This document shows positions 2,881 through 62,818 of a stretch of 64,000 nucleotides of DNA, in pieces. Source of the stretch: Bolinopsis microptera (Eukaryota > Ctenophora > Tentaculata > Lobata > Bolinopsidae); assembly GCF_026151205.1 (NCBI RefSeq), contig NC_087072.1:4512084-4576083 (forward strand), given 5' to 3'. The notes below the pieces were generated by a model, which was given only the letters and a program-made list of their open reading frames with translations, was not told the origin of the DNA and ran no database searches. The first letter of the stretch is position 1, and each line of letters starts with the position of its first letter. The position numbers and the translations under genes were made by a program.

Positions 2881-3506
2881 TTTTTATCCCAATCTAACGT
2901 CTCGAGGTTCATCAACATGGTCCTGGAAGCATTTGTTACGTCAGTCACATGAATTCCTTGTTCTCCTTCCTCCTGGTTCCTGGTGAGATTCCATATCAAC
3001 CAGGTGTCAACGGTACCAAACAGAACACCATCCTCAGAAACTCCAGGCACGTTATCCAGCAACCAACGTAGTTTTACAGCACTAAAGTAAGGTGAAATAG
3101 GGAGTCCAACTACTGACTTGAAGTGTGTAGCCGTCTTGCTGGGAGTAGCATCCACCAATTTATTCACCGTCTCATTGGTCCTGTTATCCAGCCACACAAT
3201 CGCATTGTACAATGGCTTCCCACTCTTAGCATCCCATACAATGGTCGTCTCCCTCTGGTTTGTAATACCTAACCCTGCTATCTTATCAAGAGGTACTCCC
3301 TTAGCACCAGCACTGGCAACAACTGTATCAATACATTCGTTAGAAGTCTCAAGGATTTGGTTGGGGAGTATTTCAACATAGCCCTCCTTGGGGAAGATGT
3401 TGGGGAGCACAACGTTGTGCTCTGCGATTATAACCCCAGTGTTGCAGTCAATTACGACAGCACGTGTGCTGGAGGTACCCTGATCAACTGAGAGAATGTA
3501 TGACAT
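1970..3506 (-). CDS. Glycerol kinase, apparently single exon; 3' two thirds frame-broken
   Basis: Glycerol kinase (FGGY family) phosphorylates glycerol to glycerol-3-phosphate with ATP, for lipid synthesis and glycolysis. The start ATG at 3504-3506 opens with the phosphate-binding motif VDQGTSSTRA, followed by GITNQRET, IVWLDNRT, a stretch ending FSAVKLRWLLDN, GTVDTWLIWNLT and TDVTNASRT, all family hallmarks in order. After about 2880 the frame breaks, but the homologous order continues in shifting frames: SAEIYG near 2800, DQQAAL near 2735, IALEGAVAIGG at 2554-2586, a PAFSG-like segment near 2430, a TNKA/CFQ segment near 2330, a TALGA segment near 2130 and a C-terminal WK-AVQRS-like segment near 1990. 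No intron is needed to connect them, so the gene looks intronless and about 510 codons long, the usual size. The exact stop is uncertain. The errors may be assembly noise, or the locus may be a damaged retrocopy. The family assignment is firm; whether the gene is functional is not. Confidence 0.88.
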
Positions 3507-4302
3507 CCTGTGGTATGTATTATATCATCATGGGTTGGTTATTCGAATATTTAACAGAAATGATTCGCATGCGAGTAAAATCAGATTTTAGCAATCAATA
3601 TGACGTGCAGACAATTATGCTAATTTTAAGATTTACATTTATTTATATGAATTTGACTCAAGTCATATATGCATTACATTAATGACTATTTAAAGTTAAG
3701 TTAAAATGATTAAAGTGGACAGCTCCACCTCGAAACGTTTGTCTCGAAAATTAAAACACTGAAGGTAACATGTTTCACAGAACAAGGAATGAGGACTGAG
3801 GAATTGTAAATCAAAAGCGTGATGACTTGAATTAGCTAGTAGGGACCGGTTGATAACTAGATTACAAAAATTCTCCTTTAAACCGGAAATTGGTTCCATT
3901 CACTGCTCAGTGCTCTCAGTATTGTTATCTTTACAGGACAGTGCCAAAAGTTTGAACTTTTGGTATTTTATCAAAGAATAAAACATCAAAACATCCGACT
4001 TTTAAGGTTTCTGAGATTTATTCGTATTACATTACTAAGTTTTATAATCTTCCCTCTTCCACGATCAATATTTTATCGGCATTAAAAATACTACGTAAAA
4101 TCACGACGATAATTGTGAACAACTAAATTTGTGGGTAAACGTGAGTAGCAAATCAAGACATAATTTCAATTAATCGTTTTAGGTCACTTTTTCAAGATTT
4201 CGCCAAGTTTCGCCAAGTTTCGCCAAGACATTATTATAGACACAAACCTTGATAACAGTTTATTCAGAAAACTTATGGGCCGGCACAGAGTTTTTTAATT
4301 AA
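3507..4302. other. Intergenic, upstream of glycerol kinase
   Basis: AT-rich sequence with no convincing exon. The only visible structure is three tandem 10-bp units (TTTCGCCAAG) at 4198-4227. The glycerol kinase promoter should lie in the right-hand flank of 3506, but no TATA-like element stands out. Confidence 0.5.
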
Positions 4303-8923: not shown

Positions 8924-9181
8924 GATGACCAAGTTATGATTTCACTTTGGATGGCACAAGACACGATTGAGGCACTAACAATTAGATTACCCCAAAGAAA
9001 GCTTTAATTAACGGAAAATTATCAGAAAAGACATTTTGGAAGTTGGAACAGTTTTTAATAAAAGCTTCTCTGCCAATTCTTTGACCCAAATTTCACAGTT
9101 TGGACTGAATTTCTTACCAGTAACCGACAGTGAAGTCAGTGTCGTTGACACAAGTCACCATCGAGGTACTGGAAGCTGAAT
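8924..9181 (-). pseudogene. Decayed copy of a Cys-rich exon-like unit
   Basis: This is the left copy of a direct duplication whose right copy is 9302-9534. On the minus strand it retains the segment equivalent to FQYLDGDLCQR and FSPNC-IWVKE-AEKLLL, but a roughly 30-bp insertion and several substitutions break the frame. The putative donor TTTGGG|GTAATC is conserved between copies. I read it as a degenerate second copy of the exon at 9379-9594. Confidence 0.4.
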
Positions 9182-9378
9182 ATTTAGAGAAAACTTCGAT
9201 GAAAGGAAAATTATAAAAATGTACTACCAGTTACAGTAGGACATTTTCAGATTTCAGCTTTTCGTAGCCCACATTTCACTGTTTTGACTCAGTTTTTCTT
9301 GGATGACCAAGTTATGAGTTCAAGTTATATATATATGGATGGTACAAGACACGATTGAGGCACTAAAAGTTAGATTAC

Positions 9379-9594
9379 CCCAAAGAAAGCTTTAATAAAC
9401 GGGAATCATCAGAATAGAAGGAGACATTTGGAAGATTATTTAATAAAAGCTTCTCTGCAGTTTCCTTGACCCAAATTCCACAGTTTGGACTGAATCTTTG
9501 ACATAAGTCGCCATCGAGGTACTGAAAGCTGAATTGTACTTTGAATTGCTCGCAATCCAGTTCATATCCAGTTTTTTCATTACAGGTCATATCA
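9379..9594 (-). CDS. Candidate internal exon, Cys-rich, unknown protein
   Basis: An open minus-strand segment of 216 bp is bounded by an acceptor (GTTGATTGCAG) and a possible donor (GGG|GTAATC), with both junctions in the same phase, so the exon would be symmetric. It encodes a segment containing DMTCNEKTGYELDCEQF, DGDLCQRFSPNCGIW and VKETAEKLLL, with four cysteines, which would suit a secreted or extracellular domain. I do not recognise the family. No neighbouring exon of the same gene was identified, so it may be an isolated relic. The rest of the unit (up to 9302) is part of the duplicated repeat. Confidence 0.35.
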
Positions 9595-11734: not shown

Positions 11735-13090
11735 ACGTACACAATAGTTGTGAGTACACAATAGTTGTAATTCTGAAATAATTTAAGTTACACATTTCTT
11801 ATTATTTACAAATGTGTAGGGATAATTTAGAAATGTTATATAATGCTAGTTTTAAAAAAATAAATAAATCGAGTTTGTATGGTTTAATTTTATTTTAAGG
11901 TCCTATATTGTTCGTTCATACAGAGAATTGAACGGATTGCTCTTGCTGTGGCAGTAAGTGTGGTAGGATCTAGAGTTTTGTTGGAGAGCAGACGGGCTAG
12001 GTCAGTAATGTTTTGGGGATGGAAATTAAATTTTTCCCTAACTGCGGAATAGAGCAAACAGTCAATTAATAATAATAATAATAATAAATTAATGTTATTT
12101 TTATACAGCACCAAAAGGTTAAATAATTTAAATTTAACCCTTATGCTCAGCTGTAAATGATACTTAAGTTAACGAGAGTGTGCATCTTTGCCTTAATACG
12201 TGACTTTCGTCCTCAATAGGCTTCAGCCCTTTGATGAAAAAGCAGTAGGTGCACCAACGTTCTTCTCTTGGTACAAGGGGGCTTTCGTATCTGCCCCTTT
12301 CGATGTAGAGGTTGTGGCAGCTGATACGAAACCTTGTCAGACTTTTTCGAACATCAGGTATTTTGACAATTTGTAGATATGCCTCTGGTTCGAAATCATG
12401 TTTAATTAAGTTATAGAATTATAGTTTTGGCGAGGAGGCCTTGGCAGATTTCCAGGTATTCACGAATTCTTCCCTCATGTTATGACTGATTTGGGTGGAG
12501 AGCTTAGATTTTGAGGAAGATGAGAGGGTGAAGTTGTATTTGGTGAGAAGCTTTGAGATGTTGGTATACCAAGGAAGGCCCAGCATGATCTGTTCGTGAA
12601 ATACAGCACAGAGTAGTTCGTTTTCAGTGTTTTCAAGGCGACTATAGTAATCTATTGCAAGTTTGCAGGCTTCAAAGAATAGGGGGTGGCGCCCGCTTTC
12701 GCCCCAGCAACCTATATTTGATGCTTTTGAATGGACGGACAAAGACCACTTGATAAACTTTAGGTGGAATTTTTCATAGTGGTCTTGTGCAATGTACTTC
12801 AAGGTATGCTGGGGGTTGGCTTTGTCATCTATTTTTGAAAGGTATCTCATGGTTTTTGAGTGGGGGCATAAGACTTCAAGACAGCCATAAAGCAGGATTG
12901 GTTTTATTAAGGAGTCAATTAGAATATTAAGGGCACGGTGAGAGAGGGCATCCTTAACTATATTGCCTTTGAGACCATAGAGAGCACGGAGAGCCTTGGC
13001 CCTTAGCTCAGTATTTGCTGCTGTAAACGATCCATTTCTGTGGAATATTATGCCAAGATAGCAGTGTATGACCCCTTTTTAATGTTGCTG
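11735..13090 (-). mobile_element. LINE (non-LTR) fragment, C-terminal reverse transcriptase part, copy 1
   Basis: Reading the minus strand from 13078, one frame gives the thumb and C-terminal region of a non-LTR polymerase: YLGIIFHRNGSF, then LRAKALRALYGLKGNI, then LIDSLIKPILLYG, then the open frame 12850-12419 with IGCWGESGRHPLFFEACK. Next come RISCHNLYIERGRY and a Cys-rich CTYC end near 12230, and a C-terminal LARLLSNKTLDPTT segment at about 12010. A TAA/TTA microsatellite near 12067-12087 interrupts the frame, and the endonuclease and catalytic YADD part are missing. It is a 5'-truncated, inactive copy. The 3' UTR runs to about 11735 and matches copy 2. Clade not assigned with certainty. 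Confidence 0.8.
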
Positions 13091-13690: not shown

Positions 13691-14055
13691 GATACAAGGA
13701 TACAAGGATACAAGGATACAAAAGTGATAATTACTTTATTGAGTACACAATAGTTGTAATTCTGAAATAATTTAAGTTACACAATTCTAATTATTTACAA
13801 ATTATTTATATAAATGTGTAGGGATAATTTAGAAATGTTATATAATGCTAGTTTTAGAAAAATAAATAAATCGAGTTAGTATGGTTCTATTTCAATTTAA
13901 GGTCCTATAGCATTATGCACTTGCCAGTATTTGAGTGGAAATTTGGGCTCTTATAATAGGCTGTATATTGTTCTTTCACAGAGAGAATTGAATGGATTGC
14001 TCTTGCTGTGGCAGTGAGTGTGGTAGGATCTAGAGTTTTGTTGGAGAGCAACAAC
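13691..14055 (-). mobile_element. LINE 3' end, copy 2, with 8-bp tail repeats
   Basis: 13741-14055 repeats the 3' end of the LINE at 11735-12000, sharing for example GAGTACACAATAGTTGTAAT and GGATCTAGAGTTTTGTTGGA. Copy 2 contains about 58 bp near 13910-13968 that copy 1 lacks. On the 3' side lie four 8-bp GATACAAG units (13691-13722), like the short tandem tails of CR1/L2-type elements. The copy is truncated at 14055, only 95 bp before the tetraspanin start codon. Confidence 0.75.
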
Positions 14056-14219: not shown

Positions 14220-17200
14220 GTAAGATTAATCTAAATGTTATATTGTGTTTAACTTAGAGATTTCATACATATCATTCATCTGCTTGAAAAATGCAAAAAA
14301 TCCTTCAGATTTGATGATAAAATTTTCAAATCTATATCAACTATTTCAGCTACTTGGCTCAGTGCTTCTTGTCATCGCAATATGGAGCAAGACAGAGAAA
14401 GGCAATTTGATGGACTTCAATTCCATGGCTGTAGACCCAGCCACTATATTGCTTATTGTTGGAGCAGTTATGTTCTGGATTGGGTTCTTTGGTTGGGTGG
14501 GAGCTCTACGTGAAAATGTAAAGTTCCTCCAAGTGGTAAGTTTCTGTTCTTAATTGGTGGTCAATTCTTTTCATAGTCAAAACATTATTCCTCTACACTC
14601 TTCAGTCTACACGTTCCAATACTATCCGTGTTAGCTGAGCAGTTTAAAAATGTAGGCTATACGAATATCATGACCATCGATTTACACTCCACATGACTAA
14701 ATCATTGCATTATCGTTATAAGTGTGACCCATAACTAACTTCAGTTTGCCACGAGTTTAGTTATCCTGTTTCTTGGGGAAGCAGCTGTTGGGATCCTTGC
14801 GTTTGTCATGAAAGAAAAGGTAGGAATGGGGAAGGTTTTTTAAACGCTTTATATTGTATCTGAGATCTGAGTGACCTAAGATAATTACATCTGATATTTA
14901 CTAATATATAGTTACATTATTACTTTTGTTTTTGTTTTCTGTTGTGCAACTCGACGTCATTGAGGTTACTTAGGTCGGTTATAAAGTCAGTTATTACAAC
15001 TATAAGTTCCTATAACAATATGACTTGCCTCGTTCTGGATTCAACACCCCTCAACTATACCAATAGATCCATGTTGCACTGTTCATATCATCATGACAGC
15101 TCGGTTCAGCTTGTTATGTTCAATTTATAATCGTACATTAAAGTTTTATTGAACGTGTCTATAGTATAGTCTACTGGAATGATTCTTCGGAATTTCGCTG
15201 GATTGTACAACTTTCGTCTTGGTAGATTCCAAACACAAGGAAATTTTCCTTCTGGTTGGAAATTTACTCAATGATGGGAGTATAGTGTATTGTCTATGCC
15301 CCGCATACTAGTTTAACTCTTTCTAGTCCCCTGCTACACGGCATGTAAACAGGGATTGGCTAGTTAGAGGCGGTCCGTGTAGGCCTTACACTGTGCTTTC
15401 AGCAATACTCATAGATTAATCTATCGAAAAATTAATTATGTAAACTGCTCCATGTAAGCTCGGACTGCATCGAACATATCTTTTTTTTTCGACAAATTGG
15501 GGCAAAAAATTTTTAAGAAAAACAAAATGGGAATTGTAGGGATGTCAAATTGCCAAAAAGGAAATTTTATTTAGGGCCTTTTAGGGGGGAGGGGAAGGTT
15601 TTTGTTTTATCCGAAAAAAAGAAATAATGGGGACATTTGGGGGTATTAAAAGGGGGGGGGTTCGTCCCTTCTTTAAACACTAAATGTTAAAGCCAAAAGG
15701 TTTTGAATAATCGTTTTCCCTTTTTGTTATGTTTTCTGATAAGGTTTTTTTAAAAAACCTTGCCCCCGGTATTTATACAACACCCTATTTTGGGCACACC
15801 CCCTTTAAACCCCCCTTTGGTCATTCCCCCCCAAGCGGTTATTTAAAAAGTGCGGTTAAAGTATTTAAAACCGTGATATAATATTTTACCAATCCAATTT
15901 CTCTTTTAAACCCCAAACGTTTAAATTCCCCTACTCATTGTTAAAAAATGTTTAAACCCTTTTAAAAAATCAAATGTGTAATAAAGGGGAAATAAAGTAA
16001 AATCCCCTATTAAATGGGACTGAGAAAACAAAATGAGCTGGGGGTAATTTTAAGAAAAAATATTTACAATACAACTAAATTTTTTGGCATGATTTTTGTT
16101 TTTCGGCATATAATCTGATTAAATTATCCACCCCCACTTTTTTTTTAAAAAATTTTAAAAACCGGTTTTTTTAGTTTAAAAGACCGGAGTTTGAAGTTTG
16201 GGTGAAGTGCCGTATCATGTAGCCCCAGCCCACTGGGATGTTTTACATTTAACAAAATGTATTTGACGTGAAAAAAGCCTGAAAATGAAATGTTTTCCAC
16301 ATGATTAAATCTGGGTTTTTTTAATTTATATGTATACCAATGGGGTTAAATTTTTGGGGGTTTTATTTTGAAAAAAATATGGGACATATTTAAGTTACAC
16401 TATGTTACCCCGAAAAACAATTTTTAAATTTTCCCCCATTGGGGGGGGAAAAAATCATTACCGTTTTAACCCCGATCTTTAATCGACTTTTTGGGTTTAA
16501 AAACCGTTTAAAATTTAACGAAAAAATTTCATTTTAAAGGGGTTGTGAAATTTAGACCCTCAAATTTAAAAAACCCTTGCTTTTGACCCTCAATAACCCC
16601 AATTTTTACTGCCTCCCTACATTTGTGGTAAATATTGGAAAAAATAAATTCCCCAAAAGGGTCGATGTGTTTTTTAAGAAAGCTTAAACCATAATTATTT
16701 ATAAACAAAAAAAATCTATAAATTAATAAACTTAACACCAAAACAAATTTCCAAACACAAACTCTTTAATGAAATCATCAAAACATACTGTTAAAAGACA
16801 CCCACCCATGGGCCCCCTAATGTTGAATTTCGTTTAAAAAGCTTTCCGGGCCATCACATTGTGTTTACCCCCACGGAAAGGGGGGTTTCTCTGCATTCAT
16901 CCGCCCAAAAAACCCTTTTTACACGTCAAAGTCCCAAAAATGATAACTGATTAGATAACCTTACCCGGAAAAACCCCAAAATATCCAAAATCTGTCCCCT
17001 TTAGGTTCCCAGGGTGTCCCTAAGAAGAACAAAAATGTTTTTACGCGGATTAAGCCACAGAACGACAGTGATTTGAGGGAAAGCGGGAAACGAAAAACCC
17101 CCCCCAACCCGTGAGTTTTTTAGCCCCCCTTTTTTAAAAAAGAGTAAAAATTTTTAAACATTCTGTAAATGTTTATTTCTGGGAATTTGAAGTAAAAAAT

Positions 17201-27098: not shown

Positions 27099-27254
27099 TT
27101 AGCACCCTTCCATCTCCAGGAGATCTTTGGGGGTGTGCATTGGTCCGGGAGACTTCTCTCTTGACTGGAGGGGTTCGACATCCACATGTGGCAGGTCCGT
27201 CCGGTTAGCTGCTATCAGAGTTCGTACCTTACTGTGTATCACCGCTAACTCGTC
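27099..27254 (-). CDS. Cyclin D copy A exon 6 (C-terminal tail, stop)
   Basis: Acceptor TTGTTTCAG; encodes DELAVIHSKVRTLIAANR and a charged tail ending TPKDLLEMEGC, stop TAA. The tail is poorly conserved with copy B apart from the start (DE) and the Thr-Pro near the end. Confidence 0.85.
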   Translation of the reverse strand, partial: DELAVIHSKVRTLIAANRTDLPHVDVEPLQSREKSPGPMHTPKDLLEMEGC

Positions 27255-30200
27255 CTGAAACAAAGATTTTGTTTTTAAACTCCAACGCGAAAAAGCGAGC
27301 ACACACGCGGACCCGGATTAGTTAGACAATATCTATAAATTATTCATGACACATATTATCTAAGCTCCCATCGTTATGGATTATCAGCATATCACCAACG
27401 TCTGAGTGTCTGCTTCCAGAGCAAACTGCACTGGCCTCGCGACCAGAAGTGTACGTATCAACCAGCGCTTTCACCCGACTGCTTACTTCACTCATCCGGG
27501 AAGCGTGTGTAATCTTTTCCGAGACACGCGGATTTTCTCAAATTAGCCCCTTTGAGGATACATATCTCGGAGTCTTCTCTTATGGCATGCTCTATGAAAG
27601 TATGGTGAAAGCACGACCGCACCCCAGATTGTGAAGCCGTACACTCCGCACACGAATAATAAGATCAGAAAATATTTTAAGTAGGGATCACGCGAGAGTG
27701 TTAAAAATGACTCGAACCAGCAAAGAGTCTGGTTCCTAGAGACGATATGGTGGTCGGAGGATGATGCAGGTGGTGTTACTGGTGGGATGGTTAGGGTACC
27801 AGAGGGAGCATGTGGTGGTAAGGTGCCAAAATGGCAACTCCTTGTCAACAAGTCCGGGCCTGAACAAAGTGGACACTCCACATTCTCTCACTACACCCGG
27901 AATATGGTGTGTTGTGGTGGAGTTACGTAAACCCCTAAAGTGACGTGTAAACTGTAAAGTTAACCCCCGGTGTTTGGTATTAGCTGATTGGCTCCCAATC
28001 CCCCCACACACACACACACCTCACCGGCCCCTTGTTTAACAGTCATGTTTCAAGACACCCCAGGGAGGAGGGCCTCCACTGTTTCCTGCACCACAATACA
28101 CTTTCAAATATCATCACCATTATAATGAAACTTGGTTTCTTATAATACTTTCGCTTAATACTTAGCCTCAGGCTTCTTTGGAAAGGAAAGCAAAAGTACT
28201 GTCTGTCAAGAAACCGGGAATGTTCTAGATAAAAAGGTACGGTCTTTCTGGGGAATGACGGAGGGCCTCACCTCAAGACCCAATTTATTGATTAGAATTA
28301 CTCTGCTCTGGATCTACAAACTCGTATGGGGATCTAGGTTCCCAGAATAGCTCCAAACTTCAAATAATAAGACAGTGGGCCATTTGTAGACTACTCAGAC
28401 TTAGATTTGCAATATATTTTCATTATTAGTCCAAACTCTCTTGCACACGGTTTATTTATTTCAGGCACACAAGAAGCTGGCTCCCAGCTGTGGAGCCGTA
28501 TCCTGCTAATTAGCAACTCAATTTATACTCTGGATTGGGTTTCTCTGCTGTAATTTCTCTGAAAACTTTACCAACGTGTCACTGTGAAACTGGAGACCAT
28601 GACACCTTGACAGCTTCACACCCAGCACCTTGAACCCACATTGGCTCTAATTGCAGGAGTAATTTTCAGATAATTGGGTGCAATTGGATGATTTCCTGGC
28701 TTAATTATCGTAAGGAGGGGCTAGTTGAGGAGGTTAGACGACAAAACGCACCTCGAGGGGATCTCCGTGGTACAAAGGACACAATATCTGATGATTGGCA
28801 TGTGAAAAGGAGCCCACTATCAACCCACTATCATCACTCTCCTCCCCACATACACTCTATCACTTAATACCGGGGCCCAGCCCTCTATCTCCCTTTCGTG
28901 ACACTATGTTCTATCCTACATAGTAACTGCATGGTGAAACTCCAAACGTAGCTTTCATCACCCACTATCCTTTACTTTCCCGCAACTTTCACGCTTTACG
29001 GGGTGACCCATATAGATAGTGTATTGTTAATGTTAGCAGTGCTATACTGCTGCTATACTGCAGTGCTATACCATGTATACTGCTGCTATCGACTCATTAA
29101 TTAGGTTGGGGACGAGTATCAACTATCAAGTTCAAGTTTCAACAATGTATCAATGTAGATCATATCTAGCGGCTTTACAAGCAATAATGACCCAACCCAA
29201 TAGCAATGCCGGAACCAACTCCGTCATTGCTATTTTCTAGGTTTCTTCCCTTCTCACACTATAACTCTTAATCACAAGATTTTAATGTAATTCTACAGCA
29301 ATTTCGAGCTTCTAGCAGCCAGCTTTGCTGTGAATTAACAAGACATTGTTAATTAAAACTAACAAGGATTAAGCTAATGATTGACTAGTTAGAATGAGGT
29401 TAGAATATGAGAATATGACACTGAATCTGTGTAAAGATATATTTGGATAAGGTCTAAGAATAAGGAATGAGAGATCTACATTGTAACACACATAATAATA
29501 ATGTGCTGAATAAACTGACGCTGAGTCTCATTATATACAAAATGTGAAAGTATTATCTCGACATAGAAGCATGGAATTCATTTTGCGCCTAGGTAGTTCC
29601 CACAAGGATTCTCCAAACTATTTACTCTATGGAAATACAAATAGTTTGCATTGTATTAATAAGTTATGACAAGAATCTGAAGCATTTATAGCCATTTATT
29701 TGCCGTGATTCGTATGAGGTATATGCTCTCACAAATTGTTGACGTAGTCCTCTAATGCCGACATTTCAAATCAATAACAAAAAAGAAAGATACCGAGTTC
29801 CACATAAACGTGAAAAACTCAGATTGCAGAAGCGTCCGTCTGAATATACTGAAGAAAGTTTATCAACAGAATAAAGTAAGGTAAAACACGCTAAATAAAA
29901 TAAATAAATAAATAATAAAATAAAGGATTTCTAAACTAACCTTGTTGATATCAACGAAGTGGCTCATCAGTTCAGGGAGAGTCCGTCGCAGTTCCATGTA
30001 CTTGGAACCCAGGGCGAATATGGCATCGTAGAGACATCCAGTAGCCATCATCGTACTGGAGTGCGGCAGAAACATATACTCTGAAATGGTTAAACTTTTA
30101 TAAACAGTTCCAGTTTGTAGAGGTATTTTGAGCAGAATGTTGCTGATCAAAATATTTAAAGGTCACGTTATGGTCAGATTTTCGCCATTTAATCGTCACG

Positions 30201-33200: not shown

Positions 33201-36200
33201 AGTTATATCATTGTATGTGTAATATTAGAAGAAAAGGATATAACATGGTATAAGCTAGCTGTTGCTAATTTAAACCATGATCTGTAAAATGGAACTAGCA
33301 GAAAAGGCCTCCATGAGGAATTAAGATTGGTTTGACGGAAATAGAGCTCTTCATGAGGATTTACATTAGTGATAGTGGCTCTGGCAATGGCCAGACATTT
33401 CATCTGATGTGACAAGTCATCTTAATAGTTATCAGTGGCTACTGCCAATCTAAGACAGCTGACTCTCTGTCATAATGAGGCAATCTGATAAGCTATTAGC
33501 AATCTGATAAGCTATTAACAACTCAATCAACCCCTAATACAGTTTTAATGTAGCTTCAGCTTGAACCGTTGCCAGACTGATTTGGTGGCTGTAACGGCCT
33601 GCATGCGCTGTGTCTCCCAATAAAGAGTAATAAGTGGGCAATTCATAGTGACGGCGATGGTAACCGTTAAAATGTTCACATGTGACCCACTTGAACGGTG
33701 GGTCAGAACAATTTACCAGATAACGGACAATTTTCGGAGCTCTCTCAAGCGGCGGGGAGCTATTTAGTTAGTGTGTGACAGAGAGAGGTTGCTTTCCTTG
33801 TTAAAATCATGTCTAACCGACCATCAAATGAGAGGTTGAAATTGCTGGACTAAGTCCCTGATCATTGGCCAATTCATCACATAGAATCTGTACCGTCACT
33901 GCAGGGCGAGTAAATCTCGTCTGTAGTGCGGTCAATGATCCTTGGTTTAAGCGAGATTTGCCTACTTTAAACGCAGATTACTGTCCGACATGGTCCGGGC
34001 TAAGATGACACAGACACCTAATCCATCGAAACTCAGCCACTTCATGACTCGCAGTTTGAATATTTTACATAATCAGATCCCTCTCTAGTGCGGCGGCAGA
34101 ACATAAGTTAAATATTTAGATACTAAGTCTGATTTAACTGAATAGTTTAAACTGAGTTGTTAATCTCAATCGCAGAATTATAAAGAAGTAGTACCTGTAC
34201 AGCACATGTTTATGAGGGTTCTGGCGTGGTAAGTTACTCGGCTCTTAACTTGATCTGGTATCGGGAGTCTGTGGAGGAAGTGGTCTAACAGGTCGTGAGG
34301 TAGCACCGCGCTCGTGTCCCAATTCAACATGTTCAGTATTCGCAGCTCCCAACTCTGAAGGTGATTCTGATTTAGTTTTGTGAAATAGTGATAACAGTAA
34401 GGGGAAGGCATGTGGATTTATTTTGAGTATCTGTAAGTTGGTTGACAGAAGACTGTTGGGAGGAATGTTGAACTGATATACCAATCTGGATCCATTTACA
34501 AGTCACACGCTAACCGATACAAAAGTGATCGTATCTAGATACAAATTGTTTGATCCAGACAGTTTTGTGGTAACTGGCAATAGCATGCACTATTTCCCCC
34601 CAGTTACTGCCGAATTATGACACTGCGACATCTACCCAACTGGGGTTTCGTTATTTGGAAGCCTGCTATTGGCTGGCTGCACCAGTTCCGTGCAGTGATT
34701 GGATAATGGATATCGTCACCCTGACAAACTGCACTTGCGGCCGGGGGCTTCTCATGGGCAATTCCAACGCAGCTTAGGAGTAAATGGATTATGATATAAA
34801 AGTTGAAACCCAACTCTTTAATGGCATTACATGAGGGGAGTGGAGTTGTGTCAATGTACCCGATCAGAAAGTCTGAAGGAAACACCAATGCACTCACGTA
34901 CCTACTTGAACATTACCACATCTTATCTGTATTATACTAGCCTGTATTCTGGGTTGAAGAGCGGATAAAGCTAGCAATCTTGACGCCGTCAATTCTTGTT
35001 CAGTTTCACTACCGCTAAGCCGAGGGTACATACTACACACACGTAAACAATTGCTAACATTGATGCCAGTTTGGTCAATGACTCGAATGCTTCGATGTAA
35101 TGCAAGCGGTTCAAGGAATTCGGAAAGATTGAATGTTTATATTCAACCCATTGACGTTCTTAATATTATAGAATGTTCCCATTGTTCAAGAATATTCACA
35201 TAGAGCCTCGGTATTATACTATATGTTTTAGAAAACTCCAAAAAATGTATGCTCGTTACGTTGAAGAGCAAAAAACTTCCTCTCAAGTCTAGCAACGTTA
35301 AATAGATGATGGACTAAAATTAAAGGACCCTAGCTAGACGGCACGGATATGTTATATTATTGATAACGTAATGAAGTTTATTTTTTCTTACATTTCGGTT
35401 GCGAATACGATAAGGCACGCAAACAATTTCCAAGAATACCTTAGACAATAAATTCAAGAATGTGGGAGACTTTGATTACAGTAAGGTTCGTAATAAATTC
35501 AATACGTTGAGTACATTCATTCATCTATAAAGACACATTACATTGATTCTACCTCGATCTCCAGAAAATCTAGAAAACTCCTAAAGTAAACCTGCCGAAT
35601 TTCAAGGTCATGGTTTTGGGGTTGAACAGTAGTCGGCTAATTGTTGCGCGGAGCTAGAGTTGGGTTTCAATTAAACCACTTGTCGGGGGTCCCATGAGAT
35701 GATGAAATGGACCACTCCACCAGGAGCTTAGTCGCCCTCTCTGCACGTGCAATCTCTATCACCCTCACTTCTCGTTACATCAACATATTTTCAGGTCGAC
35801 CCCAAACAAACGGCCATATTGAGCCTATTTGAAATTGGAAGATGATGACATTGAGAATGATGTTGAGGGCACGTGCAAACTCCTTCATTAGCGGCCCTAC
35901 CTAAAAACTTAATTATCACTTTGAATTCGACCCAGTTGAGAGGGTCTAAAGACCGTTAATCGACAGTAATCTAATGTTAAAACGAGAACGAGCATTAGAC
36001 ATGTAACTATGCCCAGCATTCATTCTCGGCCGACCCATGTGGACAGGTATAGAGCACGACAAAACACAAAACTCCCCTGATTTTGTGTCACATGAATCTG
36101 TCCTCAGGGTTCCTCGACGGAGGCAGCTACCTGAATATATCGGGAATAAGTAGTTCCATTAAACGCCTTATGGGAGCCCAGTCTGCCGACCAATGATATC

Positions 36201-42200: not shown

Positions 42201-45200
42201 TCCAGAGGCTCCACTTGGTACTGATCACAGATCACAGTTCAAGCTCCCAATGAGGATTACCCCACATATCTTATACACCTTCTCAGTGGCTCTAAAAAGT
42301 TCCAAAACTGCAAATATGCAACCGGAATGTTTGGAAATTCCAAATAGACCTAGAAAATCATTCTTGTCGCTTGATTAGTGGCCTGAGGAAATGCTAAGGA
42401 ATCGGAAACCTCTACTTCTAGATTCAGCCCCAGATTGGTACCCGTATTCGAGTACTTTTTAACGAATAAGAAGTTGTGTGTGATTCCGTATATAATATCG
42501 TACATTGCAACGTTTAATGTGGTTTTATGCCAAACAATACATTTCCATTTTTCCTCGAGGACACCTGTCCAAGGTTATTTATATCCGAGAATGTATGAAC
42601 TATGTACCATGTGATACCAAATACCATGTGATACCAAATACCACAGCCAGAACTGTAAGTTCCGTGTATGTAGATTTGGGTCCGCGTGACCTCAATAAAA
42701 GGGTTGTGAATCAATTATTCCAATTGAATGACTCAGCCAGACTTTGACATTAACATTCATGTAGAAATATCAACTCCACTATATTTCAGTCGTTTTAAAA
42801 TTCGAAAACGCTCCAATTTTTCTTGGAGCGTCAGCTACAAATAAGATTCATTTTAGACAAAAAATGCAGCTTTCATTTGTTACAGGCACAAATTCTGTAT
42901 TAAATTAGGGACGAGATCGAGTAGTCTGAATTAAAAAGAGGGCTGACGTATTACCATAGTTTTGCAATTTGCATGACGTACAAATACATTTCTGTGGTGA
43001 TAATAGAGCGATCAGTTAGTCGTTATGAGCCTCTATAGTCTATAGTCGTAATGAGCCTTCATAAAGGATTAGATTGGACGTGATGAGGTATTTCTGAAGC
43101 TATTTTCAACTTAAACAGTTGGTAAGCAATCTGCTAGGGGTGAGGTCCCAATCCGACAAGTATTAATGAGAAGAATCTAAATTGTGATAGATTCGCCTCT
43201 TATTCACCTAATGAATAATTTGAGTCTGTAAGCAGTGTGTGCAATATTGGGGTTTAAAACCGTTTAAACAAGGGAAGCATTTAACGGCCAAACGTTCAAA
43301 TTATAGGCGTTACTGAGATTCATACATAAAATGTTTCCTTCATGATTGAATATTCATGCTTTTTTTTTTTTTTTTTTATTTTTTTTTTTTTTAAGAGAGG
43401 CTGGGCATAGAAAGCCCACTAGAGGATAGCATTAAGATGCTTTGCCTACCTCTGGGATGAGGGGGGGTTTATTGGAGACAACAGTGTGAATTGTGGAGGA
43501 CGGTGGTGGTAATGATCTGAATGGGAATACCGCGCTTTGGTACCAGATGAGTTTATAGATCAGTTAGGCAAGGCTGCAAATGTGATGTGTTAATGCGCTA
43601 AGTTACGCCAGTCTGATCCAGTTCTTCTGGTACTATTAAGCGTTTGGTGCGGTTTGTGAAGTTGACGATTGTGGTAATGTGATGGTTGTCGAATATGTCG
43701 TTGACCGAGAGGTAGTAGTCCCGAAAGTATTGACCTCTTAGTTGGGCAATAGCTGGGCACTGTCCAAGAAAGTGTGAGACAGTTTCCTCTCCGTCACCGC
43801 ACATAGGACAAGCACTGGTACTAGATTTGCGGATGGTGTGAAGGTGTTTGTTTAAGCCACAGTGGCCCGTGATTAGGTGGACTGCGGTTCTATAGTCTTG
43901 TCTATTGTTGATGAGTGACGTGTTTATATTATTGATTATTTTGGTGTGCTTTTGGCCAAGTGTTAGTTTGGTGTGTCTAGGACCATCTGTTAACCAGATA
44001 TCCTGATTCAGTCTGTGAATATTCATGCTGTTCTACTTACAGATACTGTAAGTATACTTGTACAATATTTCCCTTACTCATCTCTTCACTTAGGTGTTAG
44101 GTTAAATGATGGAGCCCAGGAAATTTTGTGATAAATTTGATTCAGATTTATCACAAAATTTGAATCAGATTTTGGCTTGTAATTTTTCTGCTGAAAAACT
44201 TTCAAATTTGCTGACTTCTATAGAAAAGAAAGTGTATAAGTTCAATATAATAGTGGGTGGCGTTATGAAAGACTAAAAGTCTGCCAAGGACGATAAACTA
44301 GACATGAACATTACTAAGACTTCAGTTAATTGGCGGTGTAGACTGGAAACACGTTTTTAGTGTGTTCCGCGAGATTTGCTTTAATTATCTTGAAACACAC
44401 TGTACTTATTGTTTGCAATTCTATCAAATTCGATAGAAAGGAGTTAATAGAAAGCTTATTATCATGTATCATTACATCCAAATTTTCAAAATACTAAATA
44501 CTATGGACCAAAACGATTTTAATATTTTGTCTGCTGAACAAAGGATTAAGATATACTGTGATCTTTCTGCATTTTTCAAAAATGCAGTGCTTCAACGGAA
44601 TTTTATTTTATTCAAACTCCCATACGTACATAAAATGTCATATTAGAATGAAAGATGCAGCATGTTTACATTTCTCTAGCAGACGTTCAGGGAAAGTCTG
44701 TGGGGCGGTGCTTGTGACAGACCAATTTGTCACAGTACTCCCAACGGACCCACTGGGTCAGCCTAATATGCTATGTGCTTGAGTAAGCGGAATCTTGTGG
44801 TGAATTAGCGTCCTCTTAAAACTTGGTTGTAACGAGCACGGCGCAACGGTATTTTTAACGATACGTTATTAAAAAGTTACAGAGTTGAGAAATGGTTGAA
44901 ACTATAGGTGTTGAATAATGTTTAAAATATTGAAACTGTTAACTAACCCTGACTTGCTTGCTGGTGTAGCTAAAACTTCCACTCTCACATAATCTATCCA
45001 CAGGTAGGGGTTGGTTCTCTCGGAGTTTGCTGGCCAGGAACAGGCACACAGCTCCGATAACTTGCAAATCGTCCCGGGGTGACACAACCTGGGTGGTATA
45101 AACCTCAGGGCCACGAAATTTGGCAGGAAAATTGGGAGATCAACTCGTTTAGACTGCATTATATCATGCGGTATAAAGTACATCAACGACCATATGTCAA

Positions 45201-47057
45201 ATATTTGGAAGAATTTAGGGGCTGAATAGGTGGCAGTGTATCAACATACGGTGGCTTTAGAGAGATATCTGTCTAATAAGTTAACTGCATGAGGTAATAC
45301 TCCTTCCTCGCATACGTCAGAGATCTGAAATGTATTGATAAGGGGTTAATAACTAGATAATTACATTAATGCAAATTATATTCAATGATTTCGATGATGC
45401 GACAAAGCTCGCTGAGCCAGGGTTAATATATTATGATAATTTGTTGTGGAGTGAAAGTTATTGTTTGAAATATGACCGTTATCATAATTTTGCTAGATTA
45501 TGAATTCGCATTAAGGCAACATAATAAACAATCCCATCATAAGATCATGGATTTTTATGGTTTACATTAGGTCAAATATGTAGGTTCTATGGAATCCCGT
45601 AAATTTTCTGGATACATTTAATCGTTCAATGACAGGATGACGCAGAAAGGTTTGACATTTAACGCATATGAACCAGTGCATGGAGAAACCACAATTGCGA
45701 AATGTTACAGTGACAACTTTTAAAATAAGTCAACAACTCAAGGTTACGATACTTGTATATACTCATGAAAGTGGAATGACTTTTAACTTTATAGCGAACA
45801 ATTTTGCAGGACAGCTTTCTCTGCGTACCTACTGTTAAACACAATATTTCTGTTTGAGTTATCAGAAGACAGTGGTATACCGGTAAACTCATTAGCTAGC
45901 AACCAATTTTAAGATAAGTAAAGATGTTTTTATAGATTAGGCAGCTTGCCGGCCCCCTGAACATGTGTAACATTTACATACCAACATAAAGTCGAGTCAG
46001 CCCAAACCTCACCACAAATCTTATTACTTCGTAATTTCAGTAAGAAATAAGGGCATGTCAGGCTTGATAAGATTGTGTGAACCTTATCAAACCAACAGCC
46101 CACGCAGGCCCAGGTATCACGTCACGGACATGTTGTATGTATTTTCTCTTGAAATTATATACAAATATTCTCATTCCATGATTCCCAGCCGATAAATATG
46201 ATCGCAATCCCACGAATGTATAACTGCATACTAAAAGCATTCCACTCTCATTGAGCATTAGAACGCATAAGGAGTCCGGAACATTGCCACCCATGTACAA
46301 TATAATTACGACGGGAACGCTCAAATAGACCTTTATTCTATTGAACGACGGGAGACAATGTTCTAATATGAAATATGATGAGGCATGTCTGATATGTAGT
46401 GAACTGACGTCATAGCAACATGGTGAAAGGAGACCGCTTACTGTCCTAACTGAGATGATGACGTAATTGTGTCCACATTTATGGTTCGATCTTATTCAAC
46501 ATATTGTTACTGTAACTCTCACAGAAATCAAACGCATGGTAACTAGGAATTTTCCCTACCCAAGTGAAATCCGTACACAAAGAGGAACTGGGGCGTATTC
46601 TCGATTGATTTGAAAATATAAATTTTCAAATGAACATTTAATCTTAAACAATAGTAGTTCGACGAAACAAAGCAACTCTGAGTCAAAGAGACATCCAAAA
46701 ACCGCAAATTTCTTGTTTATTTCTATCAAGTACCGATAGTAATAAACAAGAAAAAGGACGAACATTCAACTTGAAGCTACACACCTCAAACATCCACTCC
46801 GTAAGTTGCTTTCTCATCTCTATCGTAAAATTGTTCTTCTGGATAAGCTCCAGATATTTCGGATTCGGTTCATAGAACTTGCTGACTCGTATCAAGTTAT
46901 TCAGTGTCTTTGGGTCATCAATATTACAGCCATCTGGAGCAGCACGTCGTGGAACATAATTCTCAAATCCAGATTCATAACAAAACATCGACAAGTAGGA
47001 TAATGTGTTTAGACGGCGTGGAAGCACATCTGGAAACGAATAATTTGGTTGGGACAT
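27099..47057 (-). CDS. D-type cyclin, copy A (complete, six exons)
   Basis: D-type cyclins bind CDK4/6-class kinases and start G1 progression by phosphorylating Rb. Exons in gene order are 46785-47057, 45250-45324, 44948-45088, 34195-34354, 29941-30080 and 27099-27254. All have consensus junctions and give 314 residues. Hallmarks are MRKQLTEWMFE, VCEEGVLPHAVNLLDRYLS, LASKLRE (the CDK-contact Lys), NWDTSAVLPHDLLDHFLHRLP and FLPHSSTMMATGC. The tail ends HTPKDLLEMEGC, keeping a Thr-Pro at the place of the mammalian degron. If translation starts at the inner Met (46986-46988) the protein has 291 residues, like mammalian D cyclins, and begins MFCYE, an MxCxE in place of the Rb-binding LxCxE. The first ATG has the better -3 base. 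Exons 2+3 together equal the 216-bp vertebrate exon 2, so an extra intron is present. Copy B lies upstream in tandem. Confidence 0.93.
29941..30080 (-). CDS. Cyclin D copy A exon 5 (second cyclin fold)
   Basis: Acceptor ATTTCAG, donor AACAAG|GTTAGT; 140 bp in phase with exon 4 (the split codon gives Glu). It contains YMFLPHSSTMMATGC, matching the FISNPPSMVAAGS region of mammalian D1. Confidence 0.92.
32404..32425. repeat. Perfect 22-bp palindrome
   Basis: CTTCCTCTCAA followed directly by its exact complement, without a loop, in intron 4 of cyclin A. Confidence 0.85.
33480..33517. repeat. Tandem 19-bp repeat, two copies
   Basis: GCAATCTGATAAGCTATTA occurs twice head to tail with no mismatch, in intron 4 of cyclin A. 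Confidence 0.85.
34195..34354 (-). CDS. Cyclin D copy A exon 4 (near-identical to copy B)
   Basis: Acceptor CACCTTCAG, donor TACAG|GTACTA; 160 bp, the same length as exon 3 of vertebrate D cyclins. It starts SWELRILNMLNWD and includes PHDLLDHFLHRLPIPDQ. Positions 34214-34354 match 53279-53419 at 138 of 141 bases. Confidence 0.95.
39694..40176. mobile_element. MITE-like element with 31-bp terminal inverted repeats
   Basis: The left arm (39694-39724) and the inverse of the right arm (40146-40176) match at 29 of 31 positions, with the core CAAGTTCGACACGCACT. Extra inverted partial copies of the GTTCGACAC core lie near 39738-39820, suggesting nesting or internal duplication. There is no coding capacity and no clear target duplication. 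It sits in intron 3 of cyclin A. Confidence 0.7.
42605..42638. repeat. Tandem 17-bp repeat, two copies
   Basis: TACCATGTGATACCAAA repeated exactly, followed by a partial third unit; in intron 3 of cyclin A. Confidence 0.85.
43347..44029 (-). mobile_element. 5'-truncated LINE (RNase H end) with target-site duplication
   Basis: The insert is flanked by the 14-bp direct repeat TGAATATTCATGCT (43347-43360 and 44016-44029). On the minus strand it ends in a poly-A tail (T run at 43361-43392) and carries the C-terminal part of a non-LTR ORF2: LTLGQKHTKIINN, DYRTAVHLITGHCGLNKHLH and a zinc-knuckle-like CPMCGDGEETVSHFLGQCPA ending near 43598. This is the region after the RNase H domain in I/Jockey-type elements. 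The initial ATG of the open frame derives from the duplicated flank. The frame is intact, suggesting a young insertion in cyclin A intron 3. Confidence 0.9.
44121..44161. repeat. Perfect 16-bp inverted repeat, 9-nt loop
   Basis: AAATTTTGTGATAAAT (44121-44136) faces its exact complement at 44146-44161. A direct echo of the loop (TTTGAATCAGATTT) follows. Confidence 0.85.
44948..45088 (-). CDS. Cyclin D copy A exon 3 (cyclin box, ASKLRE)
   Basis: Acceptor CACCCAG, donor GTCAGG|GTTAGT; 47 codons with DDLQVIGAVCLFLASKLRE. Same length as copy B exon 3; 26 of 47 residues identical. Confidence 0.92.
45250..45324 (-). CDS. Cyclin D copy A exon 2 (LLDRYLS)
   Basis: Acceptor ACATTTCAG, donor GCCACC|GTATGT; 25 codons, ISDVCEEGVLPHAVNLLDRY onward. 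The small exon is too short for an ordinary ORF scan but is confirmed by its twin at 62744-62818. Confidence 0.92.
46785..47057 (-). CDS. Cyclin D copy A exon 1 (start, first helix)
   Basis: From ATG at 47055-47057 to donor TTTGAG|GTGTGT. It holds LNNLIRVSKFYEPNPKYLEL and MRKQLTEWMFE; the intron position after WMFE equals that of vertebrate CCND1 (after WMLE). The alternative start at 46988 gives 68 codons, against 66 in human CCND1. Confidence 0.88.
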
Positions 47058-50612: not shown

Positions 50613-50771
50613 TTAGGTGCACAGCTCCTCGATGTTGGTGGGTGTCGATGAGGAAGGACTGGAGCTGCGTTTCTCTGAGAAGGAGAGGGGCGGGATCTCG
50701 TTTGAGGCGCCGCCGCCGCGTGTGCTTTCCATAAGCTTTCTGATCTTTGTTACTACGCCTTCAAATTCGTC
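50613..50771 (-). CDS. Cyclin D copy B exon 6 (tail with TPTN motif, stop)
   Basis: Acceptor AATTTCAG; DEFEGVVTKIRKLMESTR, a Gly/Ser-rich linker, then STPTNIEELCT and TAA. Confidence 0.88.
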   Translation of the reverse strand, partial: DEFEGVVTKIRKLMESTRGGGASNEIPPLSFSEKRSSSPSSSTPTNIEELCT

Positions 50772-53700
50772 CTGAAATTAAACGAGGGATAAGAAAATAA
50801 TCAAACCCGAATTGAATTATAAAATTTTGGCTACACGAATGTATATTCAATAATTTAATAATATAAAATGGCGCTTTTAATGTGTTAATAACGGGGTTAC
50901 ATTTGTTCTTTTGTGGTATCGCTTATTATTCATTTTGTTTATTTTCAAAGTTTCAATATTGTTTATTTACCGTTTCTTTGATTTTTTCCACAGCTCAGAT
51001 TACATCGTTGTTTAAGTTGTTAAAGAATGTGAACCGCATTTATTAAAAGATAATCTTATAATCTTATCGTAACTTTTGTTTGAACTACATATATTAAATA
51101 TTTAGTCCGTGTAGGCGAGCTAACTATCACCAAAAATACGATTCTTGGGTTTCGCTATTCCCACGGATAAGTGTTTCGTTTCTACATTATATATCATTAA
51201 GTGTAAATTCAATTTAAAGCGTTAACATTCAATAAATGGCTATGTACAGAGAGATATAATAGCATTGCGGTACACTCAAGAGTCTTCTAAAGTTCGCTTC
51301 AAAACAGTGTAGTTTCCGTTCCAAAGAGGGTCCTATGTGATCTAATAAAGACACACGGTGGATAAAGAGCGCTCTTAGCCACCTTCTATATTTACATTGG
51401 AGATTAAAACGTTACACGTTATTTGTATCCTTAGCCTTTTACAGCTCACCATCTGTTTTATTTATTTATAAAGCGGACTGTGAAACAACCTTTCATGTTT
51501 TAGTGAAGTCAGAGCGCAGGAATGTGGAGTCAATTTTTTATTATTCTGAAGGTCAAGAGTTATAATTTTAACAATTATCATAATTATTAATATTATGGAA
51601 GACAATTAAATTTTTGCACTTTTGCATTTAGAGTGAGAATACCAAGTTACAAAATAAAAAGTTGGTACATCAAAGCTCTTACCACGTCAATTTCGATGAA
51701 TTTTCCCATGAGTTGAACAACGTTTCCTCTGAGCTCAAGAAACTTGGAACCGAGGGCGAATATAGCGTCGTAGAGACATCCGGCAGCCATTATTTTACTG
51801 GAGTGAGGAAGAAACATGTACTCTGAAAGAATTTACTCATCAAAAATAGATCAAATAACTAAAATATCTTAAATAACTAACGTATTAGTGGTATATCTTC
51901 GATATAATAACGGCAAAATACTTTTACTGGTCTTAGTATGATTCATGCTTGCGCAATTGATCACATTATGATTTGAACAAAGAAGTCTCATATTTCATTT
52001 TGTGGTCGATCGTTTAGTCGTTTGATTTTCAGGATTGGCGGGAGTGGTCTAAGATTGATTCAAATGAACCAATGGTAGACGGTCCAAAAATGAATTTCAA
52101 ATTTACTGACTAGATGAATGATGATCAAACACCTGTAGCATCTGACGATCATAACGAAATAACCCTATACGAAATTTCATTGTGTTTGACTTTAGCTACC
52201 TGTTTGAATTTAAAATTTTAATATAGTTAGATTTCAGAGCAGATGTGAGCAGCCTATGATTATTTGATGGAATCATTAACGAACGGTACAATCATACAAA
52301 ATTAAATGGTACAGATTTGTTAATGTTCAGTCACGTGTATCAAGTCTCGTACGTAGGACGGCCGCGTGTAGTGAAATTAATGGCAATTAACACTTAGTGG
52401 GGACCTTCGAAGAGTTCCTATTGTTTGTAATCAACCGGCGTCTCACACCGGTCCATTTATCGAAACATCATTATATTGTATCAAATACCACACAAAATAT
52501 CTGGAGGAATGGAAATTCAATCAAATACCACACAAAATACTGTCTCTGTATCTGGGAACATTGAAATTTATTAACTTATGTGAAGGGTCCTGAATAAGAG
52601 AAGGCTGCAGGTGATATAGGGACGGTGCACTTTATGTAAGAGTAGACGAGTAGGGGGCTAAATTGCGGCCGTCTGTTCAGTATGTGCTACGTTTTGGAGA
52701 TAACATGTAGGGACAGTCAAGCACCTCACTTTCGGCCACATTCACATTATGTCATATAAGATTGTTCCATATGCTCCATCAGCATATATCGAAATTGTGT
52801 GGAAATTACATTAGTGTCAGCATTTCACCCAGTTTCAGAGCCCATCCTCTCTAAAATTCAGATGTGATATGTAAACCCTCCCTCAGGATGACTGTGGGCC
52901 ATCGAAAATCAAGAAATTACTGTAGTCGGTTGGGAAACGATTTTACGTATGGAAGAAGAATGGAAATGTCTGGGAAAGTGACAGAATTTGAGTACCTATT
53001 GTTTCGATCGTGCACTTGAAATCTAAATTTTTCGATGGAGCCGGTACAAAGTTTGCAGAAGGCGTGGTAGGAAGTCAAATTACGGAAAAGAGCAACGCCT
53101 CACGATACTCTGATTTAAGAGCTAAATTTGTTAAATTTGTTTTAAAATATCGAGAAATGAACCGGGCGTTGTCCCAACTTCAAAGCAGGAGAGTGATCCA
53201 TAATTATCCTTACGTCAAGTTTAGTGACCGCAGGAGAAAACCAAAGACACACAACTTACCGGTACATGAAAGGTTGAGGAGGGTTCTGGCGTGGTAGGTT
53301 ACTCGGCTCTTAACTTGATCTGGTATCGGGAGTCTGTGGAGGAAGTGGTCTAACAGGTCGTGCGGTAGCACCGCGCTCGTGTCCCAATTCAACACGTTCA
53401 GTATTCGCAGCTCCCAACTCTGAAGGTTAGATAAATTTAGAAACTCGATTTGTGCGGGGCGGTCGTAATGAGGAGATTGAGATATAGTTAGGGTTGTGTT
53501 CGAGCTAATAGTCCGTAATTTCATAACTTTTATTCGGGAATAGAAACTTAGAAACAGTGAGACACTCCCACTCGTAATATGAACCACACTCCACATTCCT
53601 AACTTTTAAACCAGTTACCAGCCACTGTATATTTTGATGTGCTCTGAAACTGGGGAGAGGGCCGGCGGGGCAGCCGCATCTTGCCGCACCGGCGGTGGTG

Positions 53701-61500: not shown

Positions 61501-62818
61501 GCGACAATAAAGACAAATTTATAATTTATATGCTATTAGTTAATATGATAAGTTTATGTTTAATATTTCTAATTCTGTAAATTCGCACCTTGACTCCTAT
61601 TCCATACCTGTCGATCTGATGAGAAACCTTTACACGTGTTTACAGAGGGGTTCTGGGAATTGAGCCCAGATCTAGAGGTGTGACCAGCCGAGTAGGAAAC
61701 CAATCCGAGCTATTACATTCCAGGAAAACCAATCAGACTCTAAGCTAAGGTGTGTTTCAAACGGACTTAATTACCCTATTAATTACACACCGGTCAGTTC
61801 ATATGTTTTCTTACCAAATCCCAAAGGAATGTATAGTAAATGTATCAATGTAGACCTAATCAACCAATCCATACTATCCACACACATTCTCATCAACTTT
61901 AGGCTCCATCTCACATAAAATCTGTCAAACTATGAAGCTCATGTTAACAATTTCACCAGACTATAGAGCTCATGTTATCGATGCTATCGGACTACTAGAC
62001 TCTAGAGAGCTTATGTAGTTATGTAGTCTCAAATTAAACCGGTTTGGGCAGCTGGTCACTTACTCTAACATCCCTGATGGAGTAGCTGTATCCACCGCAC
62101 TCCACTAGTCCGTCCACGGAAAGTGGGGTCGCTTCGCGCAGCTTGCTGGCTATAAACAGGGACGTCGCTCCGAGCACTTGCAGCTCCTCTGTGGGCCTCT
62201 CGACCTGAAGTCGTGGTATATATAAACTCACATCACTTCTATATTTAGGATGTAATAACCCTAAATAGCGGACAACATGGAAAATATTAAAAAGTTGAGG
62301 CCGGGGCAGCTAGCCGGTCGAGCTAGTGCGGTGTGGGTTAAGGAATTTACACACGAATCAGACATCTCGTGTAGTCGAACGAGAGGGAGAGAGCTAGTGT
62401 TGGGCAGGAAAACTTGAACAGGTTACCACAGATCCACGGCCCCCGGAAAATTCAATTAATTCTTATTAAGCTCTCAGTTAGAATCTGATGATCGGGTAAT
62501 TTTGCGATCAAGTATGATGTAATGTTTACTTTTCGCAAAGAATATACTCTACACACCGCTGAATAAATATATATAAAATTTGAAATCCAATTCTGGATAA
62601 TGATCGCAGTTCAGGATTGATTAATGGGAAAAGAATGAGAGGGCGTACTAAATTGCTGGGTCCCCATATCGCCCACATTCATTCCTCATTGTTCTCCGGA
62701 ACGGAAACTTCCCAGCACCAAATTTCATCCGGTATAAATTTACCTTTTGGAGGGATAGATATCTATCGAGTAAGTTCACAGCGTGGGGCAGGACACCGTC
62801 TTCACAAATATCTGATAT
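50613..62818 (-). CDS. D-type cyclin, copy B (exons 2-6; exon 1 beyond window)
   Basis: Paralogue of copy A, same strand, about 3.6 kb upstream of it. Exons in gene order are 62744-62818, 62064-62204, 53260-53419, 51683-51822 and 50613-50771, all phase-matched and of the same lengths as copy A except the last; 224 residues are visible. Features are ICEDGVLPHAVNLLDRYLS, LFIASKLRE, NWDTSAVLPHDLLDHFLHRLP, FLPHSSKIMAAGC and a Ser-rich tail with STPTNIEELCT. The last resembles the TPTDV degron of mammalian D cyclins, where the Thr before Pro is phosphorylated for turnover. No exon-1 equivalent is present between 62819 and 64000. A long third intron (8.6 kb) parallels the 10.6-kb one in copy A. Confidence 0.92.
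51683..51822 (-). CDS. Cyclin D copy B exon 5
   Basis: Acceptor CTTTCAG, donor GACGTG|GTAAGA; 140 bp with YMFLPHSSKIMAAGCLYDAI. 30 of 46 residues match copy A exon 5, with many silent differences. Confidence 0.92.
53260..53419 (-). CDS. Cyclin D copy B exon 4 (near-identical to copy A)
   Basis: Acceptor AACCTTCAG, donor TACCG|GTAAGT; 160 bp starting SWELRILNVLNWD. Against copy A, 141 bases next to the acceptor have three differences (two silent, one Met/Val), while the last 19 bases before the donor have seven. Confidence 0.95.
57486..59221. promoter_or_regulatory. Cluster of six CACGTG palindromes in cyclin B intron 3
   Basis: CACGTG occurs at 57486, 57930, 58063, 58721, 59076 and 59216. 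This is the bHLH-zip (MYC/MAX, USF, MITF) E-box. Fewer than one would be expected by chance in 1.7 kb of this composition, though the hexamer also recurs elsewhere in the window. A regulatory role is inferred only. Confidence 0.3.
58471..58549. repeat. (GA)n microsatellite, about 79 bp
   Basis: Uninterrupted GA dinucleotides in cyclin B intron 3. Confidence 0.95.
61264..61367. repeat. 13-bp minisatellite, eight units
   Basis: Units of ACAAACTTTAGTT, first four identical, later ones drifting to ACTAACTTTAGTT. Intron 3 of cyclin B. Confidence 0.9.
62064..62204 (-). CDS. Cyclin D copy B exon 3 (cyclin box, ASKLRE)
   Basis: Acceptor CGACTTCAG, donor GTTAGA|GTAAGT; 47 codons with EELQVLGATSLFIASKLRE. 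Confidence 0.93.
62744..62818 (-). CDS. Cyclin D copy B exon 2 (LLDRYLS)
   Basis: Acceptor TTTTCCAG, donor CAAAAG|GTAAAT; 25 codons, 20 identical to copy A, yet 16 of those 20 codons differ silently. Confidence 0.92.

Follow-up and report, generated by a model that had tools for sequence, protein, structure and literature searches.

How did a single exon of two otherwise well-diverged neighboring genes come to be nearly the same, even at its silent positions? The question is raised by a stretch of 64,000 nucleotides from the comb jelly Bolinopsis microptera (contig NC_087072.1, positions 4,512,084 to 4,576,083 of the forward strand; 38.5% GC), referred to here as the window. Positions below are those of the window unless stated otherwise.

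Two D-type cyclin genes in tandem

The minus strand carries two head-to-tail D-type cyclin genes, copies A and B, each with six exons and with equal intron phases (Table 1). Copy A extends from 46988 to 27099, and copy B extends from 64227, just past the end of the window, to 50613. Both gene models, predicted from the sequence by tblastn together with reading of frames and splice sites, include a start and a stop codon. The top phmmer matches of copy A among solved structures were CCND3 (E 2.4e-47) and CCND1 (E 3e-37), and the joined proteins of A and B each passed the curated cut-offs for Cyclin_N and Cyclin_C. Four single exon peptides searched alone in Pfam gave no match to a cyclin family; only the joined proteins did. 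With cyclin D relatives for copy A and two cyclin boxes in both proteins, A and B are assigned to the D-type cyclins. Each protein also opens, at its extreme N-terminus, with MFCYE (MxCxE; 46974-46988 in copy A and L015:2797-2811 in copy B), which we take to be a putative variant of the LxCxE retinoblastoma-binding motif of D-type cyclins.

A tblastn search for a third D-type cyclin, to serve as an outgroup, covered 12 cyclin loci of ~3 kb each (L003-L014, including two overlapping pairs), drawn from 27 Cyclin_N matches, three of which are copies A and B themselves. The best locus, L003, reached only 28-33% identity (E ~1e-12). Within a 264-kb region surrounding the window, only the exons of A and B gave strong matches. 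Three weak matches (E 0.1-0.44), located near 126 and 138-142 kb in window coordinates, are apparently not D-type exons; two of them fall in a repeated gene, in a frame other than its own.

Table 1. Predicted exons of the two cyclin genes, the tract they share, and a second tandem pair in the flanking sequence.
Feature	Position	Strand	Remark
Copy A exon 1	46785..46988	-	ATG start, MFCYE...; tblastn with frame and splice reading
Copy A exon 2	45250..45324	-	25 codons
Copy A exon 3	44948..45088	-	47 codons; Cyclin_N match
Copy A exon 4	34195..34354	-	160 bases, phase 0 to 1
Copy A near-identical tract	34214..34362	-	first 141 bases of exon 4 and 8 preceding intron bases
Copy A exon 5	29941..30080	-	
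Copy A exon 6	27099..27254	-	with stop codon
Copy B exon 1	64021-64227 (extended coordinates); contig C1:4576104-4576310		~20 bases past window end
Copy B exon 2	62744..62818	-	
Copy B exon 3	62064..62204	-	
Copy B exon 4	53260..53419	-	160 bases
Copy B near-identical tract	53279..53427	-	141 exon bases and 8 intron bases
Copy B exon 5	51683..51822	-	
Copy B exon 6	50613..50771	-	with stop codon
Second tandem pair	L036:9110-9543 and L035:7349-7815; contig C1:4421109-4421542 and 4429348-4429814		

Near-identity and low silent divergence are confined to exon 4

At the start of exon 4, 138 of 141 bases are identical between the two copies (34214-34354 and 53279-53419, minus strand). The three differences lie at exon position 25 (ATG/GTG, Met/Val), position 57 (CCT/CCG, silent), and position 123 (ACT/ACC, silent). 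When the tract DNA was searched against the whole assembly, it matched at two places only. Comparison of the window with itself (blastn, E up to 1e-5) yielded one further match between A and B, an 87-base part of exon 5 at 87% identity, and none between their introns.

Nucleotide identity between A and B in the other five exons is 0.47-0.72 per exon. We counted silent differences among conserved degenerate codons, excluding any that fell opposite a gap or encoded a different amino acid. Silently different codons numbered 23/44 in exon 1, 16/20 in exon 2, 16/26 in exon 3, 3/48 in exon 4, 11/27 in exon 5, and 7/15 in exon 6. Realignment reproduced the exon 4 identity given in the earlier note, with two of the three differences silent, and our recounts agree with it on the silent differences in exon 2 and on the protein identity of exon 3 (26 of 47 residues). 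The dS-per-exon comparison that it had proposed was run within the genome by the Nei-Gojobori method: low dS was found in exon 4 alone (0.16), exons 3, 5, and 6 having values of 1.59, 1.19, and 2.00, respectively, and exons 1 and 2 being saturated. When only the opening 47 codons of exon 4 are taken, dS falls to 0.06 (two silent changes in 33.8 sites).

The silent differences of exon 4 (3/48) set against those of exons 1, 2, 3, 5, and 6 (73/132) gave a Fisher value of 3e-10. The best low-difference segment scored 38, compared with a permutation maximum of 27, so that none of 100,000 codon permutations reached the observed score. The longest run of silently identical codons was 21, a length attained in 27 of 100,000 permutations, and the longest run of identical coding bases was 65, compared with at most 41 in 20,000 shuffles. 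We also constructed a codon-usage null, in which the amino acids were kept and each codon was sampled independently at the frequencies seen in the other exons; over 20,000 draws it gave a mean of 104 matches (sd 4.1) and a maximum of 120 of 141, compared with the 138 observed. Third-position GC is 0.51-0.68 across exons 3-6 in both genes, and the donor copy could not be separated by GC.

The first 26 codons of exon 5 show an intermediate level, with 6/21 conserved codons silently different. The split that sets this 5' part off (p=0.015) was chosen after seeing the data, and a scan without exon 4 gave p=0.08. The region is possibly an older conversion tract, a suggestive reading that is not significant in the scan.

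Edges of the tract

The earlier note placed the upstream edge of the identity exactly at the splice acceptor, with introns that differ at once. The edge is indeed near the exon boundary, but not exactly on it: 8 intron bases (ACCTTCAG) beyond the exon 4 acceptor are also identical between A and B. The other four acceptors of the pair show 3, 3, 6, and 6 consecutive identical intron bases, so splice consensus may explain most of the 8-base identity. Of the 30 intron bases nearest the acceptor, 17 match at exon 4, compared with 12, 7, 18, and 14 at the remaining four. On the donor side, an end to the identity about 19 bases before the splice site was borne out, as the final 19 bases of exon 4 differ at 7 positions, after 3 differences in the preceding 141.

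Interlocus gene conversion as the preferred reading

High identity that includes silent sites, set inside otherwise diverged paralogues, is the pattern by which conversion is recognized, and the exon 4 tract displays it. We consider it probable that the two exon 4 copies recently underwent interlocus gene conversion over about 145-150 bases. With low dS in exon 4 alone of the six exons, recent conversion limited to one exon, as put forward in the earlier note, stands as the best reading. The two copies of exon 4 share one orientation and are separated by 19 kb, and repair of a break would have copied one paralogue into the other. Since the introns are unalignable, the exons would be the sole homologous islands available, and the repair tract would have ended at about the acceptor on one side and 19 bases short of the donor on the other. 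The position of the acceptor-side edge would follow from intron divergence, because heteroduplex cannot extend into introns that have diverged beyond alignment. We infer that the copying was DNA-templated, either in one event or as the latest of several, and the abrupt step on the donor side leans mildly toward a single recent event.

Most estimates of interlocus conversion tracts are reported at 50 to several hundred bases, and conversion rates are reported to be higher within a chromosome (PMC3924818). A tract of 145-150 bases falls within this range and is therefore of ordinary length. The same source describes conversion as occurring mainly above 80% identity and gives an efficient length of roughly 200 bases, with exceptions possible but rare (PMC3924818). 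If divergence in exon 4 once matched that of the other exons (0.47-0.72), then the starting sequences were less than 80% alike and shorter than 200 bases. Low starting identity and short length would together count against conversion, as they would make this a rare, though possible, type of event by that account (PMC3924818). The unusual start would be resolved by a rare event, by recurrent conversion of exon 4, or by a template switch. Exon-restricted conversion is already known, and exon 4 would be a further case; its odd part is the starting identity of 47-72%, if the exon had diverged.

Alternative explanations

A variant of conversion, which we regard as possible but not the probable course, is that recurrent conversion since the duplication has kept exon 4 from ever diverging, the present identity being a steady state. 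Conversion would then never have had to begin between poorly matched sequences. A hint of such older conversion comes from the 5' part of exon 5, though the signal is lost after correction for the scan, and concerted evolution with GENECONV evidence is reported for tandem photoprotein genes of another comb jelly (PMC3570280). Against this, the 3' step is abrupt, with the last 19 bases looking as old as the other exons, and a long history of overlapping tracts should have blurred the edge.

Replication-based template switching driven by microhomology, or some other non-conversion copying, could also have moved exon 4. Such copying requires little homology and would be expected to leave the same footprint; as ordinary conversion already accounts for an exon-bounded tract, we think this improbable.

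Selection on exon 4 at the nucleotide level, through dual coding, a splicing code, RNA structure, or codon bias, would be a different kind of cause, and comparable constraint is known in other genes. Our data make it very improbable here. All five other frames of the tract contain stops in both copies, copy A exon 4 folds more weakly than 199 of 200 shuffles (z +1.79), and Rfam yielded no family at the gathering threshold anywhere in the window, so that tests of overlapping frames, RNA structure, and Rfam families gave no support to any of these as the cause of the silent identity. The tract has nine shared leucines, encoded by five synonymous codons, and the codon is the same in both copies at 9/9 places; together with the codon-usage null, this speaks against codon preference as the explanation. 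In addition, the 7 differences in the last 19 bases lie within the very same exon.

The earlier note considered a cDNA-templated event conceivable. In such an event, reverse-transcribed mRNA of one copy would have been the donor. One tract edge does lie at an exon boundary, and intron 3 of copy A holds an open frame with a weak match (E 2e-4, under the curated cut-off) to zf-RVT, a domain associated with reverse transcriptases, so a reverse transcriptase was probably once present in the genome. However, exons 3 and 5 were not co-converted, the tract occurs at just two places in the assembly, and, the introns being unalignable, their divergence alone yields an exon edge and no cDNA template is needed to explain it. 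The 8 identical intron bases past the acceptor also count against a cDNA donor, but with 3-6 at the control acceptors they are too weak a signal to tell a DNA from a cDNA template. The proposal therefore found no positive support, and we hold out very little prospect for it.

Least credible of all is an assembly artefact that carried exon 4 of one copy over into the other by pasting or polishing. Gap closing and short-read polishing did form part of the published assembly (PMC10232365), but the tract contains three differences, both of its edges run into different flanks, and it is not longer than one ordinary short read.

Other near-identical pairs in the flanking sequence

We also surveyed 264 kb around and including the window, less 84 bases. 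In this region, 41 self-matches reached both 100 bases and 93% identity. Eight of the 41, cyclin exon 4 included, are isolated pairs, with just two copies of 100-400 bases lying within 60 kb of each other. Five of the other seven pairs were translated or compared, the two left out being inverted pairs between 64606 and 66109. Two of the five proved to be neighboring exons of a second tandem pair, with copies ~8 kb apart, that encode a DSL domain and a laminin-type EGF repeat. These exons are identical at 130/137 and 145/150 coding bases (95-97%) and carry 4 silent changes over 45 codons and 3 over 50, respectively. The intron between them matches at 91/127 aligned bases (72%) and differs in length (129 vs 163, a 34-base difference). 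Further blocks of the pair are 90-95% identical over 308-374 bases, and two others are at 67% and 74%. As its intron is still alignable, the second pair is a milder case than the cyclins. Even so, it shows that the cyclins are not the only tandem genes whose exons are more alike than their introns. A broader claim, that comb jellies often copy single exons between tandem genes below the identity threshold and that homogenization is regular in their gene families, seems doubtful to us.

Comparison with known systems and age of the duplication

A close likeness in copying is to GOT1Sd and GOT1Sr of Tigriopus californicus, for which paralogue conversion is reported as largely exon-restricted, with an intron too diverged to align, and intron divergence has been proposed as the limit of conversion (PMC3728101). 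In contrast to the cyclins, in which exon 4 alone is near-identical and silent sites elsewhere in the coding sequence have diverged widely, the sequenced coding regions of that pair are described as little diverged (PMC3728101). The photoprotein genes of Mnemiopsis leidyi are likewise tandem genes of a comb jelly with GENECONV evidence of exchange, but they are reported as ten genes in two clusters rather than two genes with one common exon (PMC3570280). In duck sex-chromosome genes, it is proposed that coding exons are kept similar while introns turn over; those genes, however, are gametologues and not a tandem pair sharing a single exon (PMC4278454).

Pleurobrachia pileus is another comb jelly with two reported D-type cyclins, PpiCycD1 and PpiCycD2 (PMC4761220). 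Given these two paralogues, the cyclin duplication may be old. Lobate and cydippid comb jellies are placed 160-260 million years apart (PMC10232365), and if PpiCycD1 and PpiCycD2 correspond to A and B, the duplication would be far older than the identity of exon 4 suggests.

Among the titles and abstract openings of open papers on ctenophore cyclin D and gene conversion, we found no report of the exon 4 case. The locus offers an unusually clean footprint of a one-exon exchange, with silently diverged neighboring exons, unalignable introns, and one sharp edge inside the exon. Exon 4 would mislead gene trees or dating, and if the event postdates the divergence of the exons, it would represent natural conversion well below the usual identity threshold, in a phylum for which concerted evolution has been reported (PMC3570280).

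Other features of the window

Intron 3 of cyclin copy A contains, at 43598-44032 (minus strand), what is probably a decayed non-LTR retrotransposon, recognized by its sub-cut-off zf-RVT match. Short direct repeats of 84-94% identity occur at 11751-11990 and 13740-14050 and at 8930-9110 and 9321-9495; the first of these pairs has further matching sequence within the 264 kb and is possibly a mobile element. Two neighboring genes were also noted. The gene at 2856-3524 (minus strand) encodes an FGGY carbohydrate kinase N-terminal domain and is presumably glycerol-kinase-like, and that at 14230-14553 (plus strand) encodes a tetraspanin.
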